From: a virus
Strand: one strand, 5' to 3'
DNA: 20,081 bases
IMG/VR virus record: IMGVR_UViG_3300032820_000162
Span: 1 to 20,081 of that record
This document shows positions 3,493-18,326 of the stretch, piece by piece. The translations under genes and the position numbers were made by a program. Below the pieces are notes generated by a model that did not search any database, had not been told where the DNA came from, and worked only from the letters and a program-made list of their open reading frames with translations. Each line of letters begins with the position of its first letter. The first letter of the stretch is position 1.

Positions 3493-6400
3493 ATGGCACC
3501 ATTTGATGCAACATTAACGACTAAGGTATCTCCGTTAATCGAGGGCCAAGTTCCTGACTTTGTTCAGTCGGACCATCCTCAATTTGTCCAATTTATAAAA
3601 GACTATTATGAATTTCTAGAAGCAGCTGAGATAGTTATCTCAGCTCATATTTTTCATGTAATTCAAGAAAAAACTGACAGTCAACTTATCCTTAATGAAG
3701 ATGGGTCTAAGGTAGTTACAGAAACTGGCTCTGGAACGTATGGTAAATTTGTAATAGGGGAAACCATTACAGGAGAAACGTCTGGAGCCACCGCAACCGT
3801 CCTTGTTGATGACTTAGAAAATCTAAGACTGTTTGTGTCCAGTTCTACAAGATTTCTCATAGGCGAAAAAATAACAGGAGGTTCCTCTTCAGCCTGGGGC
3901 AACATAGTTACCTATCGTGATAACCCCATAACCTCTATTCAAAAACTACTGGACTATGCCGACCCTGATAATACAGTCCACATTATGTTGGATGAGATGT
4001 TCAATCAGTTTCTACAGGCAATTCCCAAGACCCTAGCATCTGGTACTTCCAAACGTGGTCTTCTAAAAAATATTAGAGACTTGTATGCTGCAAAAGGAAC
4101 CTCCGAAGGACACAAGTTATTTTTTAGGATGATGTTTGCTGAGGAAGCTGATATCTTCTATCCTACAAAATATATGATGAGGGTGTCAGATGGCAAGTGG
4201 CAGAAGAAAACTATTATCCGCTGTGAAAACCAAGCTGGTGCCAACGGCAATGATATTATAGGGCAGTACATTACAGGCAAAACTTCTGGTGCAACTTGTT
4301 TCGTAGTCGATGCTATCGGGTTTACTCAAGGAGTAAACTCTATCACTGAATTTGAAATTTTAGAAGACTCTTTAGTAGGAACATTTTCACAAGGGGAAAC
4401 CGTTGCTGCTGATTCTCTAGCTGAAAAAGTAGAGATGAAATTTACCATTCAAAAAATTGTGGCTGGGACTACAGTTGATAAACCAGGCATGCTATATGCT
4501 ACTGGTGATACAGTTTCTTTAGACTCTACAGTAGGGAATGGTAGAGCAGTTTTACAGGTAGACCAAGTTGGGCTTGGTAGTGTAGACGAAGCTGTAATAG
4601 ATGATGCTGGAAGTGGTTATAGGGTAGGTGATGTTTTAACTTTTACTACTTCACAATTAAGTACAGTTTCAGCTGAAGGGTTTGTTTCTGTTGTTGGCGG
4701 TAGTATTGTATTGGAGGATTCCGATAACAGTGATGGATATGAGGACTACTGTACAATAGAAGAAAACACAAAACGAAGGCTTATAGATTTTACAATATGT
4801 CTTGAAGAAGACGGTGGTCAACTTTTAATAGATGGTCTGGATTCTTCTTCAACTCATGCTGGTTATTATTTTAGAACAGAAATTGGAACCCAACAAACAG
4901 TTCACGATACGTATGCTACCCCAAATGATCGTATCGTTTTAGAGGAAGCTTCAAATTCTGCGATAGGAGACATTACAAGAACTTATATAACGAATCATGG
5001 GTCTGGATATGAAGCCTTGCCCACGGTAACTATAACCAGCGATTTTGGCACGGGCGGGACGGTAGTACCAACCACTAAAGACATAGGGGCAATCTTAAAT
5101 ACAAAAAATATTGATTCTGGATTTAACTATCAGGTGGCGCCTGATGCTTCCATTCCAGTTAACTTTGTCTTGAAAGGTGTGAGTGGTTCGTTTAGTAAAG
5201 ATGAGGTTCTAACTTCTCATACTGGTACTATCACGAAATGGGATGCCGATAGACAAATTTTATCTGTCAATATCGAAGACGTTGTTAGACTTCAGATGGA
5301 GCAAGACAATGACGCAATATCCCAGCAAGTTGAACAAGAATTAAATACGGAATTGGTGTTCAGTAGAGTCCTTGGTGAAAATGTTCTAGAGACTAACGAC
5401 TATGTTTATTGGAAGGACAGAGGCCTTGCTGATATTGACTTGGACTCCAGACTAACATCTTTTGTTACTGAGCTTGGTGAGGAACGCCTTGTTACAAACT
5501 CTGATTCGACATCGCTAAACCAAGTTAGCCTGGAGTATGATTCTTCTACTTACACTATGTCACGAGCAAGAGTTGAATTAGAGGAACGGCGTGCTGAAGA
5601 TGGTAATGTAACTGTTCAAGATTCTGAAACCCAGCATTTTGAAATGTCGCCTTATAGGCGTCAGGAAATTGCAGCACTTAAATTAGACGGCCATGATGTT
5701 GGTGATCCTATAGTGATGAACGCTAGTGCTGCTGATACAGACGTTGGGGATAACATTCTTCTAGATGGTACAGATGGTTCCAGTACTGATGCTGGGAGCA
5801 ATATTATACAACAAACAGATGGAGAAGGTCGGTGGATTTTATTTGAGGATCATCCTGTTGTTTCTAATTCCCAGCAACTGAAAGATAAATTTCAATTAGA
5901 TGGTACAGAGCTACAGGTACACACTACCGGCGGTTGGGTAAACGAGAGCAGAATTGCTAGTGATGGTTTGGTATCAAGTTCTAGTCAAGTAGTTACCTCT
6001 TATGCTTCTGAAGGTATAGACATTAAGTTAGAACAACCTGAGTCTGTATTCGGTATTGATTGTGAAATTCGATTAGAAAGTGCTACTGAGGCAGGGTCCA
6101 GCAATACTGGTTTCATTGAATTGGAAGATGCCACAGATGGAAATGGTGGAGTCATCTTAGGTGTAGAGTATTCTATCGGTGATTTTATTGCTATGGACGC
6201 ATTTGACGATAAGTGGATTTTTAGGGAAGGAGCAACTCTTAAAAATAATTGGTCCGGCGCCGGGGATCGAATTAAAACAGAAGGTGAAGGCGGAGCGCAT
6301 AGTACTGTACCGCATGATCTTGGCCGTGTAGCTGATGAAACAGATGGGATGCTTTTAGAGGATTCTGTAGCAGATGCTGTCAACAACACCAAAGAATTTC

Positions 6401-9400
6401 TTATATTAGAAGGGCCCGATGGTAATTCTAGTGGTACTGGAGAAGATGGTTATTATACCTTATATGAAGCTGATACAGTCGCACATGCTAACGATTCTAC
6501 AGACAGATTTATAACTGAGGGTGGAGAGCCCATTATCGATGAGGAGAGCATATACTCAGGATTTGAAGGGCTAGGTTCTGGTAAAATTATGATGGACAAC
6601 CATTTGATAAATGGTGACAAAATAACTATACCCATAGCTTTAGATGGCACAGACAATGCCGAAAATGATAGCGGAGATTATATTATCTTTGATGGGTTGT
6701 CTGCTACAGAACGGATTGGTAATACAATAGCTCTAGAGAGCGGACTATTAGCCGGGGTGGCTGATGATGTCTTAGGAGATGACCTTCTCCATGAACCAGA
6801 AAATATGGTAGCTGGAGATATTCTATTAGACGCAACAAATCAGTCTGGCCTAAATGCTGGAGATAATCTTATTAATGAGGATGGTATCGAGTGGGTGGGG
6901 AAAACTATAACAGGAGCGAATGGAGCCACAGGACAGGTTGTAGCTGCTCTACCAGCTAAAGTTACTGTCAATAATGATTTTGTTGCCACTTCTATAGGAG
7001 TTTACAAAAATACAGACAGTCTTATTAGTGAAGACGTAATTCGTATACAGGATTCTTACTACTACCAAGATTTTTCTTATGAGGTGAAATTAGGACAATC
7101 GTTGGGCAAATATATGAATGAACTGAAAAAAGCAGTTCACCCAGCTGGGTTCATGCCTTTTGGTAAAGTTATAATTTCTACATCCCTCTCAGCCGCAATT
7201 GCACAAGCTGGTGTAGGTGTGGCTGATGCTGGTGAAGTAACCTTCTCACCAATCTTGGGTTCTGTATTGAAAGAAATTTTTGATTTACGAATTCAAAGAA
7301 GAATTGGATTACCACACACCTACGAACATGGAGCATATTTTGAGGAGTTGCGTTTAGAGAATGGTTCTGTTCCTGACAGCCAAATAGCCATTGACGGCAC
7401 AAATTTTGGGACGGCATTAGAACAAGAAGAAGGTGTGGTCATTCTCCAAAGTTTAGCTAATGATGGAGACAATATTCTGGTAACAGCTTCTGATGATGGT
7501 TCTCAAGTTGATGCGGGCGATCAAATCATATTGAACGGTACTGATGCTAGTGGTACAAACGATGGTGATGTTACAGGGGAATATGCTTCATTGCTGTTGG
7601 ACGGAACTTCTATATTTGTATCGGGCTCAACTGAGACTGTGAATGATGAAGGGTCTTATGTTTTAATGAGTGGTTCTGCTCTGGGCGAATATGAGCTTGT
7701 AGATGCTGACAGCAACAGTCTTGTACTAAATGGAACAGACGATTTTCCACGAGGCAAAAAAGATAGAATAGTGCATGAAGACGGTGATGACGCTGGAAGT
7801 AATATTGTTACAGATAATGTTGTCAGGTCAACCACACTGGTTGAAACTGGTGGTCCTATTCAAGTAGAGTCAGCAGTGTCTAACATACGTGGCCCATATA
7901 TTTGTACTCAATTGGGGGAGAGAATTGTTTCCGAAGATTTTGCAGAAACTATAGTTGATGGAGCAATATTGCCTATCAATCAAAAAATAGGTATGGAAAA
8001 TTCTGTAGGAGACAATCTTATATTTGAGGATACCTCTGGCGTTATGATGACAGAGGCTTCTACAGGAACGCAAGGTGATGGTTTCGATGTTAATTTTATT
8101 CGACTACTGAAAACAAAAATTTCTGTACCTCCGCCTAGACCCCTCAACGCTGTAGGGCTTAAACATATGGCCTTAGATGTGTTTGGTTCAGCTGTAGGTG
8201 TAGGGGGTATACAATTAGAGGATGGAGCAAGAAAACGAGGTCCGACTATTAACTCTGAAGTGATTCTTTTAGACAGTATTGATATGGGCAAAAAAGATGA
8301 TCCTCAAGATTATCGCCATTCTGGTGAGCCTATGGAACTGGAAACGGCCACCGCTGTCAACCTTGGTGTGGGAACCTCGTTTGAAGATTTTTACAAATGG
8401 ACAAGGTATGGAATTAAATTAGATGGTACTGATGGAAGCGGTACGAATGCTGGAGATGATATTGCTTTAGAAATTCCTTCTGGTGGCGTAATAATATCTG
8501 AAGATGTTGTTATTTCTTTACCCATGATAGATTTCATCAGGCCTGATATGTTGTTGATGGAGTATTGGGAGCAAAGACATTCTGAATATGGTAGGTTGGT
8601 TTTAAATGGCTCGGCATCAGATAACAGTCTTGGAGCCTTAGATGACGGTGGTCAAGTCTTACTAGATGGTACTGATCCTAGCAGTAACAACGCTGGGGAA
8701 GCGATCTTATTTGAAACAGATAATGAAGTTAATAAATCTCACGATGACAGAAACAATATAAACATACTCATGGAGACACATGGAGAAGGTGGTGGATTTA
8801 TCCTAAGAGAATATGGTGGGGGTGCTGTATCAGAAGGAGATATGATTGTACTGGACGGTACTGACAGCAGCTCTACGGATGCCGCTGATAAATTTGTTCA
8901 AGAGGATACTGAGGATGATAGGGTTGTTCAATCTCCTGGCGCTTTTGAATTAGAAAATGATAACGCATCTCATGTCCTTCTAGAAGATAATGGTGGCTGT
9001 ATAGTGAATGAGGATACAGGGGCAATTCTAGCAGAAATAGATGAAGGTGCTGGCCATGATATTAGTTTAGAAGTAGGTACTGGAGTTGGTCTTGGTTTTA
9101 AATTACTGTTAGAAGCACAAAGAATTGAAATAGAATCTGGTATAAACGATGGCGAGGTTCCAACTGCAAGTTTGGGTGATGCTTCTGTTTTCCCATCATT
9201 AACTTTGCCCACAGAAATTTCAACAAGACCTTTAGGCCATGTTGTGTTACAGGATGAGAGAGCAGTAACAGAAATGGTTCTAGATGGCACGGACGGAAGT
9301 AGTACTGATGCTGGAGACAATATTATTCTGAACGGTACTAATGCTTTGGGAACAGATGAGGGGGATAAGTGGTTGCATGAGGATCATGGTTCAGTAATTT

Positions 9401-9621
9401 TAGATCAACATTGGCAAGGGCATGTGTTATTTAATGCGACAGATGGTAGTAGTACAGATGCTGGAGATAGAATTCAGTGGGAACTTGGTACATATTCTAG
9501 CTTGTTAGGTACATATGATGCATTTTTACCATTTGGAGCTCATGCTGAGACTTTTGATAATACAAGTAGAACAAAATATGATACTATCCAACAAACTTTT
9601 GATGTATTGGAAGGTTCCTAG
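3493..9621 (+). CDS. Giant gp7-position baseplate/tail structural protein with Asp-rich 16-residue repeats
   Basis: This is a 2042-aa protein lying between gp6 and gp8, where T4 has gp7 (1032 aa, the wedge initiator). By position it is the gp7 counterpart, although direct similarity to T4 gp7 cannot be seen by eye. The N-terminus (KVSPLIEGQVPDFVQSDHPQ, then FIKDYYEFLE, residues 11-43) and KRGLLKNIRDLYAAKGTSEG plus YPTKYMMRV (residues 187-230) look like the core of a structural-protein family of marine T4-like phages. A second core block is at residues 1184-1226 (RIQDSYYYQDFSYEV, HPAGFMPFGKV). Between and after these blocks lie long Asp/Gly/Ser/Thr-rich regions with about 15 copies of a 16-residue unit, consensus LDGTDGSSTDAGDNII. 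F-x-x-GE-x-I-x-G-x-x-SGA modules are at residues 86-140, and GSGY modules near 370-390 and 500-520. No frameshift is seen. The start at 3493 is 2 nt after the gp6 stop, with CAGAG at 3479-3483 as a weak ribosome site, so translation is probably coupled. Confidence 0.85.
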   Translation: MAPFDATLTTKVSPLIEGQVPDFVQSDHPQFVQFIKDYYEFLEAAEIVISAHIFHVIQEKTDSQLILNEDGSKVVTETGSGTYGKFVIGETITGETSGATATVLVDDLENLRLFVSSSTRFLIGEKITGGSSSAWGNIVTYRDNPITSIQKLLDYADPDNTVHIMLDEMFNQFLQAIPKTLASGTSKRGLLKNIRDLYAAKGTSEGHKLFFRMMFAEEADIFYPTKYMMRVSDGKWQKKTIIRCENQAGANGNDIIGQYITGKTSGATCFVVDAIGFTQGVNSITEFEILEDSLVGTFSQGETVAADSLAEKVEMKFTIQKIVAGTTVDKPGMLYATGDTVSLDSTVGNGRAVLQVDQVGLGSVDEAVIDDAGSGYRVGDVLTFTTSQLSTVSAEGFVSVVGGSIVLEDSDNSDGYEDYCTIEENTKRRLIDFTICLEEDGGQLLIDGLDSSSTHAGYYFRTEIGTQQTVHDTYATPNDRIVLEEASNSAIGDITRTYITNHGSGYEALPTVTITSDFGTGGTVVPTTKDIGAILNTKNIDSGFNYQVAPDASIPVNFVLKGVSGSFSKDEVLTSHTGTITKWDADRQILSVNIEDVVRLQMEQDNDAISQQVEQELNTELVFSRVLGENVLETNDYVYWKDRGLADIDLDSRLTSFVTELGEERLVTNSDSTSLNQVSLEYDSSTYTMSRARVELEERRAEDGNVTVQDSETQHFEMSPYRRQEIAALKLDGHDVGDPIVMNASAADTDVGDNILLDGTDGSSTDAGSNIIQQTDGEGRWILFEDHPVVSNSQQLKDKFQLDGTELQVHTTGGWVNESRIASDGLVSSSSQVVTSYASEGIDIKLEQPESVFGIDCEIRLESATEAGSSNTGFIELEDATDGNGGVILGVEYSIGDFIAMDAFDDKWIFREGATLKNNWSGAGDRIKTEGEGGAHSTVPHDLGRVADETDGMLLEDSVADAVNNTKEFLILEGPDGNSSGTGEDGYYTLYEADTVAHANDSTDRFITEGGEPIIDEESIYSGFEGLGSGKIMMDNHLINGDKITIPIALDGTDNAENDSGDYIIFDGLSATERIGNTIALESGLLAGVADDVLGDDLLHEPENMVAGDILLDATNQSGLNAGDNLINEDGIEWVGKTITGANGATGQVVAALPAKVTVNNDFVATSIGVYKNTDSLISEDVIRIQDSYYYQDFSYEVKLGQSLGKYMNELKKAVHPAGFMPFGKVIISTSLSAAIAQAGVGVADAGEVTFSPILGSVLKEIFDLRIQRRIGLPHTYEHGAYFEELRLENGSVPDSQIAIDGTNFGTALEQEEGVVILQSLANDGDNILVTASDDGSQVDAGDQIILNGTDASGTNDGDVTGEYASLLLDGTSIFVSGSTETVNDEGSYVLMSGSALGEYELVDADSNSLVLNGTDDFPRGKKDRIVHEDGDDAGSNIVTDNVVRSTTLVETGGPIQVESAVSNIRGPYICTQLGERIVSEDFAETIVDGAILPINQKIGMENSVGDNLIFEDTSGVMMTEASTGTQGDGFDVNFIRLLKTKISVPPPRPLNAVGLKHMALDVFGSAVGVGGIQLEDGARKRGPTINSEVILLDSIDMGKKDDPQDYRHSGEPMELETATAVNLGVGTSFEDFYKWTRYGIKLDGTDGSGTNAGDDIALEIPSGGVIISEDVVISLPMIDFIRPDMLLMEYWEQRHSEYGRLVLNGSASDNSLGALDDGGQVLLDGTDPSSNNAGEAILFETDNEVNKSHDDRNNINILMETHGEGGGFILREYGGGAVSEGDMIVLDGTDSSSTDAADKFVQEDTEDDRVVQSPGAFELENDNASHVLLEDNGGCIVNEDTGAILAEIDEGAGHDISLEVGTGVGLGFKLLLEAQRIEIESGINDGEVPTASLGDASVFPSLTLPTEISTRPLGHVVLQDERAVTEMVLDGTDGSSTDAGDNIILNGTNALGTDEGDKWLHEDHGSVILDQHWQGHVLFNATDGSSTDAGDRIQWELGTYSSLLGTYDAFLPFGAHAETFDNTSRTKYDTIQQTFDVLEGS
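4831..9474 (+). repeat. Dispersed 16-residue (48-nt) LDGTDxSSTDAGDxII coding repeat
   Basis: Units begin at about 4831, 5719, 5761, 6640, 6826, 7486, 7531, 7726, 8419, 8662, 8851, 9280, 9328 and 9430, with a degenerate one near 5896. At 5719/5761, 7486/7531 and 9280/9328 two units are directly adjacent, and the 9280/9328 pair fixes the period at 16 residues. The best-kept positions are Asp or Asn at 2, Gly 3, Thr 4, Asp 5, Asp 10, Gly 12 and Asp 13, followed by two or three hydrophobic residues. Serine codons switch between TCN and AGY among copies, so the DNA has diverged while the protein pattern is kept. A beta-rich, possibly metal-binding structure is an inference from the regular Asp spacing only. 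Confidence 0.85.
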
Positions 9622-11894: not shown

Positions 11895-14800
11895 ATGCCT
11901 CTTAAAACAGATTTAAATGTAACACCATATTTTGATGACTATGAGCCAACCAAAAACTTTCAACAGATTTTGGCAAGGCCTGGGCATGCTGTACAAGCTA
12001 GGGAATTGACTCAGTTACAAAGTATTCTAAGAAATCAAAATGAAAGGCTTTCTGATTTTGTTTTACAGGAAGGTTCTGTTGTCATACCAGGCAGTGTTAA
12101 AATAATGCGGCAAGTTGCTTCATTAAAACTTGAAAATAGTTATGGGGGAGAAACTATTGATGTAACAGAGTATAAAGATGCTGTTATAACAGGGACAACG
12201 ACAGGGGTTAAGGGTACAGTAATTCATGTAGAAGCTGCTACTGCTGATGACCCTGCTACTTTTTTCATTAGACCTGTTGCTGGAGGCACTGATACTGCTC
12301 CTGCTGATGGGAACCCAGTACTATTATTTCAGGCTGGAGAGACTTTATCTGCTAGTATAGGTATAACCAACGGTTCAACATCATATTCTGTTGATGATAT
12401 TTCTGCTCAAGTAGCGGCAACTGATCCTCATGCTCAAGGGATACTTATAGGTATATCGCCAGGGGTTTATTATCTTAGAGGTGGTTTTGTTGAGGTTGAT
12501 CAAGATGTTATAACTCTTTCAAAATATTCAAGTGGCAATGTCAATTGTCGAGTTGGTTTTATTGTAACTGAGGAACTTGTTACTCCAGAATCTGATCCTG
12601 ATCTTTTGGATAATGCGGCTGGGACATCAAACTATGCTGCAAAGGGTGCTCATAGGATGAAAGTGTCTGCAACATTTTCACAACTTCCAGCTGGTTCTTC
12701 TGATGATGCTAATTTTATACAGCTATTGGAAATCAAAGGTGGCCGTCCAACCAGTGAAATGAATAGATCAGAATTAGGGCATATTTTACAAACCCTAGAA
12801 AGAAGGACTTATGATGAATCTGGCGATTACACTGTTCGTCCTTTCATGTATGAGGCAAAAGAATCTGTAACTCTTAATGAAAATGTAGGCGTATATGCTA
12901 AGGGCGAGGAAACAGAAGGAGGGGGTACTGCTTCTAATGATCTTTTAGCCCTTAAAGTATCGCCAGGTAAAGCCTATATTAAAGGTAAAGAAGTTGAAAA
13001 AATGCTTAATACCTTTGTTGATATAGAAAAAGCTAGAAGTTTTCTTAATGTTAATGCTGGTGCAACTGCCTATGATATCGGCAATTATTTAAACGTAACA
13101 AATGTGTACGGTATGCCTGATATTTCTTTTATTAGTGGTGAAACGACTCCCTACAAACAAATTAGTATGATGGATACCCCAACTTCTACAAGAGGTTCGG
13201 CATCTGGAACTAGAATTGGTGTAGGTAGAGCAAGAGCAATAGAATATGCTTCGGGAACTGTAGGCCCAGAAGCTACATATAAATTTTATATATTTGATTT
13301 TAGGCCATTTACTATTGTTACGTTGAGTGCTACACCAAGTCCCACCTTAACTGCAAACCAAACAACTGGAGGTACACAAGTTAAGGGAGATGATTCTGGT
13401 GCTACAGGTTGGGTATTTGAAGACGGCACATCTGCTGCTAACCTTATTTTAACTAATGTGTCTGGAACTTTTCAGGCAGGGGAAAAACTTACTGCTTCTG
13501 ATAGAAGTGGTGAGGTTGATGATGGGTCCACTGACTTAACTATATCTAGGGCGATAACGAAAACTGTTTCTGAATGTAGACAAGTTCATATGCAAGATGA
13601 TGACACTGGCCAACACTTTACTGCTGACATTGTATTATCTCCCACCACGACTACGGAATCCTTTGTCCTATTAGATGGAACTGATGATGTTGGATCAAAT
13701 GTAGATGATCATATTATTGGAGAATTGGATAAAATTCCTCTTGGCTTGCAACGTGGAGCTGCTAGTGGTACTGGATCAAATCTAAATCTGGCCAAGTTGC
13801 AATTCGCTGAAAAAAACGCAGCGCTGTTTAAACTTACTAAAGATATTGTTAAGACTCATTTGACTACAAAGAATGCTGGACAAAGTGATACCTCTTATTA
13901 TCTTAGAAGGCAATTTGTTGAAACTTCCAGCAGTGCTGGTGTTGTAACAATTAGTGCCGGAACTAACGAAGTTTTCTCTGGTCATACTGAAACAGATTAT
14001 ACTGTTACTATACTTCAGGCTGGTTCTGGTGGCACTGGAAGTCAGGGCGATCTTGTAAGTGCTGCTACTGGTTTTTCTGGAGGGGGGAGTTCTACCTGTA
14101 CTATCACAAATAATGCTGTTTTTGGTAATGGAGCGAAGGTAAAAATTCTTGCTACATTATTGAAATCTTCTGCTACTGCAAAGACAAAAAGTGCCAAGTT
14201 GATGAAACAGGTGAAGGTTGCGACTGGCACTGCCGATCCTTATGGAACTAGACCTACTGATAAAACAATCTCTCTAGGAAGAGCTGACGTATTTAAACTT
14301 GTTGCTGTTCTTGATTCAGAAGATACAGGCACGGATGCAACGGCTCCAGTGTTAACTTTAGGTAATATTACAGGGAATTTTATTAAAGGAGAACAAATTA
14401 CGGGATCAGTTAGTGGTGCTATAGGCAGAATTATTGATACTTCATCTCCGATGTCTTATGTTCTTAAACGAGGAACCACCATACAGTTTAGTGCCGCAGA
14501 TACAATAAGTGGGTTTTCTAGTGAGGCATCTGCTCCAGTGTCGGCTGTGGCCACAGGTAGTACCAATATTACACAAAGATATGAACTTGATACAGGCCAA
14601 CGAGACAACTATTATGACATTGCTAGAATAGTACGGAAGCCTGGAGAGGGCCCACCTCTAGGAAGATTGCTGATTGTACATGATTATCTAGAACATGGTA
14701 CAGGAGATTTCTTTACGGTTGACTCTTATGTGGATGTCGCAGATCAAATGACTTACGAAGATATTCCTGTCTATTCTGCTACGAAAGTTGACCCTGATGA

Positions 14801-17800
14801 TCCTGCTCCTTCTGGAGAATTTAAACTACAGGATTGTTTTGATGCTCGGCCAAGAGCTGAAAATATTGCCGGCGCAGCTGCGAATGTGGAAACAGTTGAT
14901 GAGATAACAGGAACATCGTTTGATTTTGTAAATAGGCAGTTTGATGGTACAGGGGCTTCACTGGTTGATTTTATAAAACCCGCTTCAATAATTGTTACTG
15001 ATTTTGAATTTTATATTCCCTATAGAGGATTGCTTTATTTGGAACGAAGAGGTGATATTAAATTTTTAAAGGGTGTTGCTTCTGAAGCTCCAAGATTTCC
15101 AGTTTTAAAAGATGATGTTATGAAGCTGGCTGAAATTGCTGTCCCGGCGTATACATTTAAACCTTCCGATGTGGTTATTAAGAGAGAAAGAAATAGACGA
15201 TATACTATGAAAGATATCGGTAAGTTGGATCAACGTATTCAACACATAGAATATTATACTGCTCTGAATTTGTTGGAAAGAGATGCTGAAGGATTTGAGA
15301 TTCAAGATGCTAACGGACTGAATCGTTTTAAGTCTGGATTTGTCGTTGATGATTTCTCAGGCCATAGAGTGGGAGATGCAAAACATAAAGATTACAAGAA
15401 CAGTATTGATATGCAGAATAACGAACTTAGGCCAACTGCTGTGCCTAAGGGAATTCAGATGGAAGAAGCTGCCCAAGATGATGCTACAAGAGCAGGGGTT
15501 GGATATCAAAGAACAGGTGATCTTATCACACTACCATATACTGAAGTATTGTTTCAAGACATGCCTTATGCTACAAGAGTAGAGAGGGTCACGCCTCTTT
15601 TACATTCTAATTGGGTAGGAACTATTGAACTAGACCCATCAGGAGATGAATGGTTTGAAACTGAAACTGCACCTGATCTTATTGTTAATGTTGAAGGTAA
15701 CTTTGATACGTTTACTGCAAACAATCAGCATGCTGTAGGGACGGTATGGAACGCATGGCAAACTACTTGGTCTGGAGTTGTAGGATCAAGAACGACTACT
15801 ACTGTCGAAGATAGTTGGACGAATGTTGCAAGAACTGTTACTACTTCCAGAACAGATTTAACAAGAAGTGGCGTGCAAACAGATATCGTACCACAGATTG
15901 ATATGGAATCTCAAGGAACGAAAGTAATTCAGAGAGCCTTTATTCCTTTCTGCCGTGCTAGAAATATTACATTTACAGGCACAGGATTTTATCCTAATAT
16001 AAGGTTGTATTGTTTCTTTGATAAACAAAATGTTAATAAGTATTGCACTCCATTGTCAGGATTTACTACAGACGCAGCTGATGTTAGTGGTGTCCCTGTG
16101 GCAGAATCTCCTTTGATCACTACGGCAGCTGGAGAAATTCAAGCTGTGTTTGCTCTTCCTGATCCGAAGGAAGCGGGTAATCCCAAATTTAAAACAGGGG
16201 AGGTTGAGTTTAGGTTAACTTCTAGTTCAACGGATGTTCGTAGTAAAGACCCAGAAACCGAAGGAACTACTACGTATCAAGCCGTGGGTATTTTGGAAAC
16301 AGAACAAGAAACGATTATTGCTACGAGAAATGCTAGATTAGTTTCTAGGCCAGTATCACAAAGTACTTCTGTAACTTCTTCTTCTGTTATGGAAACACGA
16401 ACTGCGGATCATCATCAGTCTTGTGGTTGTGGTTGCGGTGGTGATCCTATTGCTCAAACATTTACGGTTGAGGCTGATCCTCATGCTGAGATCGATGAAG
16501 CTGGAACAGGCAGGGTAACTGTTAAAGACCGATCTAATGGTAGGTTTATAACTTCTGTTGATATATATTTTCAAAATAAAGATGAAAATTTGCCATGCAG
16601 TATGGAAATTCGGGCATGTCAAAATGGATTTCCAAGTCCTAAAATCATGCCTTTTGGTAAGAAGACTTTAAAACCTATCAATATAGATTTGTCTTCAGAT
16701 GGTACAGTACCGACTAACTTTAAATTTGATTCGCCTGTATTTGTACAGCATGAAAAAGAATATGCCATGATTTTACTCACATCTTCTCCAGAATATAAAA
16801 TTTGGTTGTCTAGGATGGGAGAAACTGTTGTCGGTGATGGTGCTGGCAGGACGGTATCGGAACAACCTCATGCCGGTGTGTTATTCAAAGGGCATAATAA
16901 TAGAACGTGGGCACCGTCCATGACAGAGGATTTGAAATTTAGGCTTAATGTTGCTAAGTTTGATACGACAGCAGCTGGTAAATGTCAATTAGTGAATTCT
17001 GAACTTCCTACCAAAAAGCTGAATGAAAACCCTCTCGTATTTGCAAATGGTAATACTTCTCTATTGGTTAAACATAGAGATCATCAAATGTATTCCACTT
17101 CAAATAATGTTACTATTACTGGTGTTGTATCAGGAGCAGAAACAACTTTAGCAGCAGCTCTAGATGCGGCCTCAACTTCATTAACACTATCTTCTGGTAC
17201 AGATTTTGATGATACCACTGGGAAATTTGCTTATGATGCTAATTCTACGTGGTGGTTAAAAATTGATGATGAAATTTTGAAATATACTGCTATTAGTACC
17301 ACAGCTGTATCCAGTATGACTAGAGGCCAATCCAGTACTACTGCTACCACTCATGCTCAAGGAGCTAAAGTAGAATTGTATATGTTGCATAAAGTACCAT
17401 TTACAGAGATTAATAAAACACATACTTCTCTTGCAAATATTAATGTCGATTCGTACACTCTTACTTTGGAAAGTGCTCCTGTAATTAGTGGTGATGAGGC
17501 AACAAATGGTGGAGAATATGTTTATGCATCTGAAAATGCTAGTTATGATGTAGGTATGCCTTCGATTAGCACTATGGAATTGCCAGGAACAAAAATAACT
17601 TCACATATCAGGCCGATGTCAGGTACTAGCCCATCAGGCACACAAACTTCATTCTTAACAACTTCTGAATCAGATTCAATAGAAGTTAATTTAAATGATA
17701 ACCAAGAATTTGATACTCCATATTTGGTGGCTTCTGGTATTAATGAGACAAACGAAAATGGAGGTAAAAAATCTTTGCTAATAGATACTGTACTTACTTC

Positions 17801-18326
17801 TGGAAATTCTGATATAAGTCCAGTAATCGATACTGGTAGGATGACATTTATTGCAGTAGGTAATAAATTAAATAAGATTGATTCTTCAGGCGATTGGTAT
17901 CCTTCTGGAGATTTTAGGGCATCAGTGGAGCCTGATGGTGATAATAATGCTTGCATTTATTTAACCAAGAAAGTGACTCTTGAAAATCCAGCAACTGCTC
18001 TTAAAGTATTTTTTGCTGGCCACAGACATTCTTCTTCAACGATCAAGTCATACTATAAGATTTTGAGAACGGATGATGCTTCAGAATTTGATGACTTGGG
18101 TTATGTTGCTTTCAATTCTGATGGTTCTACAGATACTCCTGCTCAAGATGCTACAGGTAGAGACTCCTTTACACAATTTGTGTATACGGCTGGAGTGACA
18201 GATGATGGCATAGGAACACCTTTGGATGATTTTATTTCTTTTCAAATTAAAATTGTATTACAGGGAACAAATACTGCTGAACCACCTCGCATTAAGGATT
18301 TAAGGTGTATAGCATTGGCAATGTAA
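11895..18326 (+). CDS. Giant DUF4815-like virion structural protein
   Basis: This is a 2143-aa protein. The N-terminus (YFDDYEPTKNFQQILARPGH, then AVQARELTQLQSILRNQ, residues 12-48) is typical of DUF4815 phage proteins. Later family blocks include NRRYTMKDIGKLDQRI with HIEYYTALNLLE (1100-1128), MPYATRVERVTP (about 1221), IPFCRARNITF with YCFFDKQNVNKYCTP (about 1347-1385), and a DPIAQTFTV segment at 1517. Between residues 1506 and 1516 is a HHQSCGCGCGG cluster, a possible metal site. Other modules are GE-x-I-x-G-SGA units (524-545, 827-850), one LDGTD unit (593), and a short beta module with WLKIDDEILKYT and SMTRGQSS (about 1749-1826). The family is known as virion structural protein. An outer-baseplate or fibre-network role is an inference from position after gp8. 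Translation is probably coupled: GTGGAG at 11881-11886 lies in the end of gp8, and the ATG is 2 nt after its stop. Confidence 0.88.
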   Translation: MPLKTDLNVTPYFDDYEPTKNFQQILARPGHAVQARELTQLQSILRNQNERLSDFVLQEGSVVIPGSVKIMRQVASLKLENSYGGETIDVTEYKDAVITGTTTGVKGTVIHVEAATADDPATFFIRPVAGGTDTAPADGNPVLLFQAGETLSASIGITNGSTSYSVDDISAQVAATDPHAQGILIGISPGVYYLRGGFVEVDQDVITLSKYSSGNVNCRVGFIVTEELVTPESDPDLLDNAAGTSNYAAKGAHRMKVSATFSQLPAGSSDDANFIQLLEIKGGRPTSEMNRSELGHILQTLERRTYDESGDYTVRPFMYEAKESVTLNENVGVYAKGEETEGGGTASNDLLALKVSPGKAYIKGKEVEKMLNTFVDIEKARSFLNVNAGATAYDIGNYLNVTNVYGMPDISFISGETTPYKQISMMDTPTSTRGSASGTRIGVGRARAIEYASGTVGPEATYKFYIFDFRPFTIVTLSATPSPTLTANQTTGGTQVKGDDSGATGWVFEDGTSAANLILTNVSGTFQAGEKLTASDRSGEVDDGSTDLTISRAITKTVSECRQVHMQDDDTGQHFTADIVLSPTTTTESFVLLDGTDDVGSNVDDHIIGELDKIPLGLQRGAASGTGSNLNLAKLQFAEKNAALFKLTKDIVKTHLTTKNAGQSDTSYYLRRQFVETSSSAGVVTISAGTNEVFSGHTETDYTVTILQAGSGGTGSQGDLVSAATGFSGGGSSTCTITNNAVFGNGAKVKILATLLKSSATAKTKSAKLMKQVKVATGTADPYGTRPTDKTISLGRADVFKLVAVLDSEDTGTDATAPVLTLGNITGNFIKGEQITGSVSGAIGRIIDTSSPMSYVLKRGTTIQFSAADTISGFSSEASAPVSAVATGSTNITQRYELDTGQRDNYYDIARIVRKPGEGPPLGRLLIVHDYLEHGTGDFFTVDSYVDVADQMTYEDIPVYSATKVDPDDPAPSGEFKLQDCFDARPRAENIAGAAANVETVDEITGTSFDFVNRQFDGTGASLVDFIKPASIIVTDFEFYIPYRGLLYLERRGDIKFLKGVASEAPRFPVLKDDVMKLAEIAVPAYTFKPSDVVIKRERNRRYTMKDIGKLDQRIQHIEYYTALNLLERDAEGFEIQDANGLNRFKSGFVVDDFSGHRVGDAKHKDYKNSIDMQNNELRPTAVPKGIQMEEAAQDDATRAGVGYQRTGDLITLPYTEVLFQDMPYATRVERVTPLLHSNWVGTIELDPSGDEWFETETAPDLIVNVEGNFDTFTANNQHAVGTVWNAWQTTWSGVVGSRTTTTVEDSWTNVARTVTTSRTDLTRSGVQTDIVPQIDMESQGTKVIQRAFIPFCRARNITFTGTGFYPNIRLYCFFDKQNVNKYCTPLSGFTTDAADVSGVPVAESPLITTAAGEIQAVFALPDPKEAGNPKFKTGEVEFRLTSSSTDVRSKDPETEGTTTYQAVGILETEQETIIATRNARLVSRPVSQSTSVTSSSVMETRTADHHQSCGCGCGGDPIAQTFTVEADPHAEIDEAGTGRVTVKDRSNGRFITSVDIYFQNKDENLPCSMEIRACQNGFPSPKIMPFGKKTLKPINIDLSSDGTVPTNFKFDSPVFVQHEKEYAMILLTSSPEYKIWLSRMGETVVGDGAGRTVSEQPHAGVLFKGHNNRTWAPSMTEDLKFRLNVAKFDTTAAGKCQLVNSELPTKKLNENPLVFANGNTSLLVKHRDHQMYSTSNNVTITGVVSGAETTLAAALDAASTSLTLSSGTDFDDTTGKFAYDANSTWWLKIDDEILKYTAISTTAVSSMTRGQSSTTATTHAQGAKVELYMLHKVPFTEINKTHTSLANINVDSYTLTLESAPVISGDEATNGGEYVYASENASYDVGMPSISTMELPGTKITSHIRPMSGTSPSGTQTSFLTTSESDSIEVNLNDNQEFDTPYLVASGINETNENGGKKSLLIDTVLTSGNSDISPVIDTGRMTFIAVGNKLNKIDSSGDWYPSGDFRASVEPDGDNNACIYLTKKVTLENPATALKVFFAGHRHSSSTIKSYYKILRTDDASEFDDLGYVAFNSDGSTDTPAQDATGRDSFTQFVYTAGVTDDGIGTPLDDFISFQIKIVLQGTNTAEPPRIKDLRCIALAM

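Follow-up and report, generated by a model that had tools for sequence, protein, structure and literature searches.

The stretch of virus DNA analysed here, positions 1 to 20,081 of the IMG/VR record IMGVR_UViG_3300032820_000162 (20,081 nucleotides, referred to as the window), is a 20-kb fragment with a T4-like baseplate module. The module comprises the genes of gp25 (P0009), gp6 (P0004), P0001, a gp9/10-N-like fibre protein (P0006), gp8 (P0005), P0002 and a fibre. P0001 (3493-9621, plus strand) is the gp7-position baseplate protein of 2042 aa with a net charge of −223, and the subject of this study is a family of short repeat units which it carries. The assignment of P0001, based on its open reading frame (ORF) and on Pfam and PHROG matches, supports the proposal of an initial annotation made from the sequence that the carrier is a baseplate-module protein. 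The N-terminal baseplate wedge domain (residues 16-226; 3538-4170, plus strand), which lies outside the repeat region, matched PF23786 (Baseplate_wedge) with 39.1 bits, above the curated cut-off of 27, and phrog_3465 with an E-value of 1.4e-77; the neighbours are gp25, gp6 and gp8, and P0001 sits between gp6 and gp8, as the gp7 position expects. A conserved core domain (about residues 1131-1280; 6883-7332, plus strand) is common to the gp7-position proteins of phages HTVC008M, Mosig and Melnitz. Conservation of P0001 is strongest in the N-terminal 600 residues or so and in this core, and the remainder is the repeat-bearing extension.

The repeat family described by the initial annotation is real. 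In the window, 13 segments of 16 residues matched LDGTDGSSTDAGDNII at 7 or more of the 16 positions, as compared with 0.35 on average and at most 4 in 1000 residue shuffles, and a 26-column profile found 11 units, all within P0001 (E-values from 5.5e-15 to 2.4e-4). About 14 units can be listed, close to the 15 or so originally counted, and the span given for them (4831-9474) needs only a slight correction, the first unit starting at 4828 and the last one ending at 9477. Both the consensus windows and the profile detected, all on the plus strand, the units IDGLDSSSTHAGYYFR (residue 446; 4828-4875), LDGTDGSSTDAGSNII (residue 757; 5761-5808), LDGTDNAENDSGDYII (residue 1050; 6640-6687), LDATNQSGLNAGDNLI (residue 1112; 6826-6873), which adjoins the conserved core domain, and LNGTDASGTNDGDVTG (residue 1347; 7531-7578). 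The consensus windows added, on the same strand, the related companion unit VMNASAADTDVGDNIL (residue 741; 5713-5760), of a type found elsewhere as LDASA..TDVGD, the unit TASDDGSQVDAGDQII (residue 1331; 7483-7530) and the degenerate unit LNGTDDFPRGKKDRIV (residue 1412; 7726-7773). The remaining plus-strand units were found with the profile: LDGTDGSGTNAGDDIA (residue 1643; 8419-8466), LDGTDPSSNNAGEAIL (residue 1724; 8662-8709), LDGTDSSSTDAADKFV (residue 1787; 8851-8898; E-value 5.5e-15), the consensus unit itself (residue 1930; 9280-9327), LNGTNALGTDEGDKWL (residue 1946; 9328-9375) and FNATDGSSTDAGDRIQ (residue 1980; 9430-9477). The exact 16-residue tandem noted initially at 9280/9328 was confirmed, and two more were found at 5713/5761 and 7483/7531. 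Across distant orthologues, three C-terminal units outscored their flanks, with identities of 0.58-0.68 vs 0.23-0.36 (0.62 vs 0.23 at 8419, 0.68 vs 0.36 at 9280 and 0.58 vs 0.30 at 9430). In other loci (L117, L129, L081), the main unit is often succeeded by loops of two companion types, LDASAxxTDVGDxxLxE and LDTAADENDxLLYED, which may be equivalent modules.

Related loci were collected with a DNA pattern for the motif in viral contigs and in 84,980 prokaryote genomes. The unit statistics were then based on 460 distinct units, 339 of which are not matched by the search pattern, and the main bias of a pattern search was therefore removed. The consensus [DG]x[IL][VLI]L[DN]GTDxS[SG][TS][ND]AGDx[IL][LI]x[EDN] describes a unit of 16-22 residues with two short hydrophobic segments, each ending with an acidic or amide residue, and a joining loop with GTD at its start and AG[D] at its end. 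The strand I-x-x-E-D-G, initially reported as a frequent follower of the unit, is rare in this literal form, and [IL][LI]xE fits better. Thr4 is present in 97% and D5 in 94% of the units; position 18 is Glu in 63% and D or N in most of the others. Replacement in 35 orthologue pairs was rarest at T4 (2.6%) and amounted to 7-11% at D5, L1, E18, G3 and G12. The ratio of nonsynonymous to synonymous changes was 0.39 at positions 1, 3, 4, 5, 11 and 12 vs 0.94 in the rest of the genes (p 9e-13). The constrained residues of the unit are L1, G3, T4, D5, G12 and E18, and D5 and E18 are the only constrained acids.

The initial annotation described the repeat in one protein, and its occurrence turned out to be far wider. 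The DNA pattern matched at least 119 stretches in viral contigs and four in the prokaryote genomes. The latter four are probably phage contigs in bacterial bins, because one has the length (13588) of a viral contig and others carry phage genes. The 13588-base contig PAWD01000044.1 (L128) of a Thaumarchaeota metagenome-assembled genome is identical to the viral contig L021 in its length and in its unit-bearing ORF, and it is probably a wrongly binned phage contig. A T4-like structural relative of the genes of the window is encoded in 119 of the 123 loci fetched with the pattern. The 152 unit-bearing ORFs of the fetched loci comprise 102 gp7-like, 9 DUF4815-like, 8 fibre-like and 33 other ORFs. 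PHROG scans of 20 ORFs from the fibre-like and other groups led to tail sheath, neck protein Hc2 and further fibres; three tail sheaths (phrog_23, E-value about 1e-124) were among ten scanned unit-bearing ORFs. The 47-kb contig G005 has units in four ORFs of 526, 727 (sheath), 1821 and 2193 aa, and the contig G006 has 20 units over six ORFs. In the DUF4815 family, the unit is found at one orthologous place. The member encoded in the window, P0002 (2143 aa; 11895-18326, plus strand; its relatives bear the name VrlC), retains there the degenerate copy LDGTDDVGSNVDDHII (13671-13718, plus strand), and its orthologues carry a unit at the corresponding site. The unit is thus spread over non-homologous virion proteins of phages which, judging from their relatives, are marine and T4-like, and often several of these proteins carry it in one phage. 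A tblastn search with the repeat block returned unrelated weak matches only, probably because BLAST masks low complexity.

A further carrier, the tail sheath, allowed the insertion place to be compared. Among 50 near-complete sheath proteins, 15 carry the unit, nearly always as a tandem pair, between the motifs NWGTD and YTAV. Sheath relatives are without any insertion at this place, and the tandem pair is carried in that loop by two sheath lineages; the pattern of presence on the tree requires two changes or more, a minimum imposed by branches with good support. The place aligns to about residues 312-330 of T4 gp18, the exact residue being uncertain because the alignment is gappy there. These residues lie in domain II of T4 gp18 (189-345), which belongs to the solution-exposed fragment (PMC3004832). 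Taken across lineages and carriers, the unit is gained and lost, and it occurs singly or as an exact 16-residue tandem, as part of a broader succession of loops and strand-like segments.

It is the protein sequence of the unit that is shared between genomes and not the DNA sequence. Codon identity at the shared residues of the window units was 43%, the value expected from codon usage being 40%; the codons differ about as codon usage predicts, and the likeness is therefore held at the protein level. Between units of different contigs, codon identity was 47.6%, equal to the control (47.0%), and recent DNA copying is therefore excluded as the link between genomes. Recent tandem duplication was likewise rejected as an origin of the similarity between genomes. 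A mobile or palindromic in-frame DNA element was rejected as well, since the DNA of the unit is not conserved between genomes and the repeat barely shows in the DNA, where no tandem array was found. Within one gene some copies are close (up to 44 of 48 bases), and two loci (L004 and L005) showed indel and block turnover at the units though their genes are 97.8% identical overall.

Our preferred reading, to which we give somewhat better than even chances, is that virion proteins carry the repeat as a portable unit of their surface, where it serves as an optional decoration. The decoration or adhesive layer on the baseplate envisaged in the initial annotation fits this reading, also beyond the baseplate, because the unit is present in DUF4815, fibre, neck and sheath proteins as well; the calcium signature proposed along with it is not supported. 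Each unit would fold as a strand-loop-strand, for which the grammar of such segments described below also speaks, and, judging from its sequence and from the sheath alignment, would project from an exposed loop in all carriers. The units would thereby add an acidic, multi-copy layer to the surface. Their use is most likely accessory and, by analogy with the distribution of Ig-like domains, may consist in binding the host surface weakly through many contacts or in mutual bracing of tail parts.

The promiscuous Ig-like domains of phages are described, with reference to earlier work, as optional, repeated and surface-exposed modules which are present in unrelated virion proteins including the tail sheath and are exchanged between phages, with weak adhesion or stability as their presumed contribution (PMC9230969). 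The unit resembles them in its distribution, as it is carried by non-homologous virion proteins of several kinds and is present in some relatives but absent from others. Ig-like domains are beta-sandwiches of about 80-100 residues, in contrast to a unit of 16-22 residues inserted in loops singly or in tandem, and no Ig-like Pfam family matched P0001 at E<0.1, nor did any match the unit. The shared constrained residues in sheath, neck, baseplate and fibres would make the unit a small, easily recognized counterpart of these domains.

Several points weigh against the reading as a portable surface unit. The ratio of nonsynonymous to synonymous changes over whole units (0.93) is about that of the rest of the genes (0.95), the constraint being limited to some positions. 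The strand-loop-strand fold and the surface projection were deduced from the sequence and the sheath alignment, and the AlphaFold models of P0001 residues 1270-2042 and 420-1290 were of low confidence (pLDDT 35 and 43). A role in adhesion or stability is proposed by analogy. The two changes in the sheath could reflect either two gains or a gain together with a loss. Finally, the census started from a DNA pattern, and the counts per protein type are those of a sample and not frequencies.

The alternative that survives best, though we consider it unlikely, is that the Asp residues of the loops chelate seawater Ca2+ and thereby stiffen an adhesive or protective layer. The loops are rich in Asp/Asn with Gly and Thr/Ser, P0001 is strongly acidic, D5 and E18 are constrained and the carriers look marine, all of which would suit calcium. 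The initial annotation had pointed to Asp at positions 2, 5, 10 and 13, a spacing like that of calcium-binding repeats; the complete set is present in only three of the 14 units of the window (residues 1050, 1787 and 1930), and the four positions are acidic together in 67 of the 460 units. Position 2 is D in 54% and N in 38% of the units, position 10 is N in 53% and D in 42%, and 61% of the units have Asp at position 13. These three positions are not conserved as Asp and evolve as variable sites, with replacement (17-22%) about equal to that of the variable loop positions and a nonsynonymous to synonymous ratio of 1.44. The covariation of D and N between positions 2 and 10 is positive, so that a charge lost at one site is not compensated at the other. 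The known acidic calcium-binding repeats, i.e. RTX, thrombospondin type 3 (TSP3)/dockerin, EF-hand and FG-GAP, are also short and rich in Asp, Asn and Gly, but their spacing and required acids differ from those of the unit; their patterns gave no match in P0001 and none of these Pfam families was found in it at E<0.1. The four-aspartate calcium site was therefore rejected as stated. Since the changes at positions 2 and 10 are presumably D/N swaps in part, these positions may have an Asx role, which does not apply to four fixed carboxylates as a set. The loop may bind metal, although the pattern of conservation points elsewhere, and a tempting but weak calcium story is removed by this analysis.

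It also seems doubtful that residues 430-1995 of P0001 form one long repetitive beta structure, such as a beta-solenoid or an adhesin-like stalk, with the unit as its commonest coil. There is a strong strand-loop-strand grammar with several loop lengths, in which a hydrophobic triplet with D/N/E is followed by a loop of 5-13 residues, a [GAEN][DESN]x step and a hydrophobic pair with D/N/E, and the unit is the commonest form of it; with 9-residue loops this grammar occurred 228 times vs 1.4 in shuffles. Exact 16-residue tandems account for 31 of the 314 neighbouring pairs and a spacing of 27 for another 27 pairs, but the spacing is otherwise irregular. The AIDA-type autotransporter stalk repeat PF16168, which also consists of short strand-turn repeats, matched one stretch of P0001 (residues 1814-1857; E-value 0.0024) with 18.4 bits, below its curated cut-off of 27, and did not match the units as a class. 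Moreover, the single or double insertions of sheath and neck proteins are too short for a long solenoid, and AlphaFold produced none in its low-confidence models.

Quite improbable is the use of loop Ser/Thr/Asn as acceptors of glycosylation or of another modification by phage or host enzymes. The loop is rich in Ser/Thr with a nearly invariant Thr4, and glycosyltransferases are frequent in the host recognition cluster of pelagimyophages (PMC7029224), but the Ser/Thr at positions 6-9 are variable and the conservation of Thr4 is equally explicable as structural. An Asp/Asn hydroxylase near these genes in phage Mosig was dismissed as a modifier of the units, no units having been found in the Mosig genome. 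At L127:4067-5134, a gene for a 2OG-Fe(II) oxygenase, a conceivable modifier, neighbours that of a protein with units.

We give very little credence to a functionless, neutral low-complexity expansion in tolerant loops: close relatives gain and lose units, the gp7-position proteins of near relatives of P0001 range from about 810 to 2042 aa and the overall constraint on units equals that on the rest of the genes, but six positions are strongly constrained, unrelated proteins hold identical residues without DNA identity and the three C-terminal units are kept at orthologous places. Just as improbable is a virion-wide homotypic connector, in which strand-loop-strand pieces of sheath, neck, baseplate and fibres would pair with one another and hold fibres or tail parts together until host contact; a single small motif would in this way link many tail proteins.

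The unit was rated, from sequence comparisons, as a very small promiscuous virion module. As the initial annotation stated, it corresponds to no nameable motif. It matched no Pfam family, no NCBIfam model lies over it and its profile gave only chance-level PDB matches, to two metalloproteinase chains (E-value about 0.7). The literal unit strings were not found in a literature text search of 5.39 million papers, in which most subscription journals are not covered. Marine T4-like phages belong to the most abundant viruses, and a large share of the protein mass in their virions is still to be explained. The unit gives a handle for annotating the giant gp7-position proteins.

The cultured phages most closely related at P0001 are Methylophilales phage Melnitz and the Pelagibacter phages Mosig and HTVC008M, which are all classified in the Kyanoviridae, with counterparts of 896, 874 and 1016 aa, respectively. 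The HTVC008M protein gp055 (YP_007517921, annotated as head closure Hc2) resembles P0001 in its position after gp25 and gp6 and in its homologous ends, and it carries four units vs about 14 in the twice as long P0001; the rest of the HTVC008M genome is without units. This cultured phage, with four units in a single protein, makes the function of the unit testable. The whole of P0001 gave one PDB match, at chance level (E-value 0.17), and no T4 gp7 chain was among the matches. T4 gp7 was reported to be lacking in pelagimyophages (PMC7029224).

The protein after gp6 in the cyanophages S-CAM3, S-PM2 and P-HM1 (L130, L131, L132) has about 3046, 3049 and 4447 aa, respectively, including the stop, according to annotated coordinates. 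The repeat unit was not found in these giant proteins, and a single weak match lies at another place in the S-PM2 genome. Marine T4-like phages apparently accept large extensions at the post-gp6 position. The N-terminal region of P0001 (3742-4404) and its relatives contain repeats of a second type, F..GETITG.TSGATA. Short FD-x-T/S...FD motifs, e.g. FDNTSRTKYDTIQQTFDV, end many gp7-position proteins (in the window at 9535-9618, and in L006, L003 and L017) and are possibly a C-terminal docking signal.

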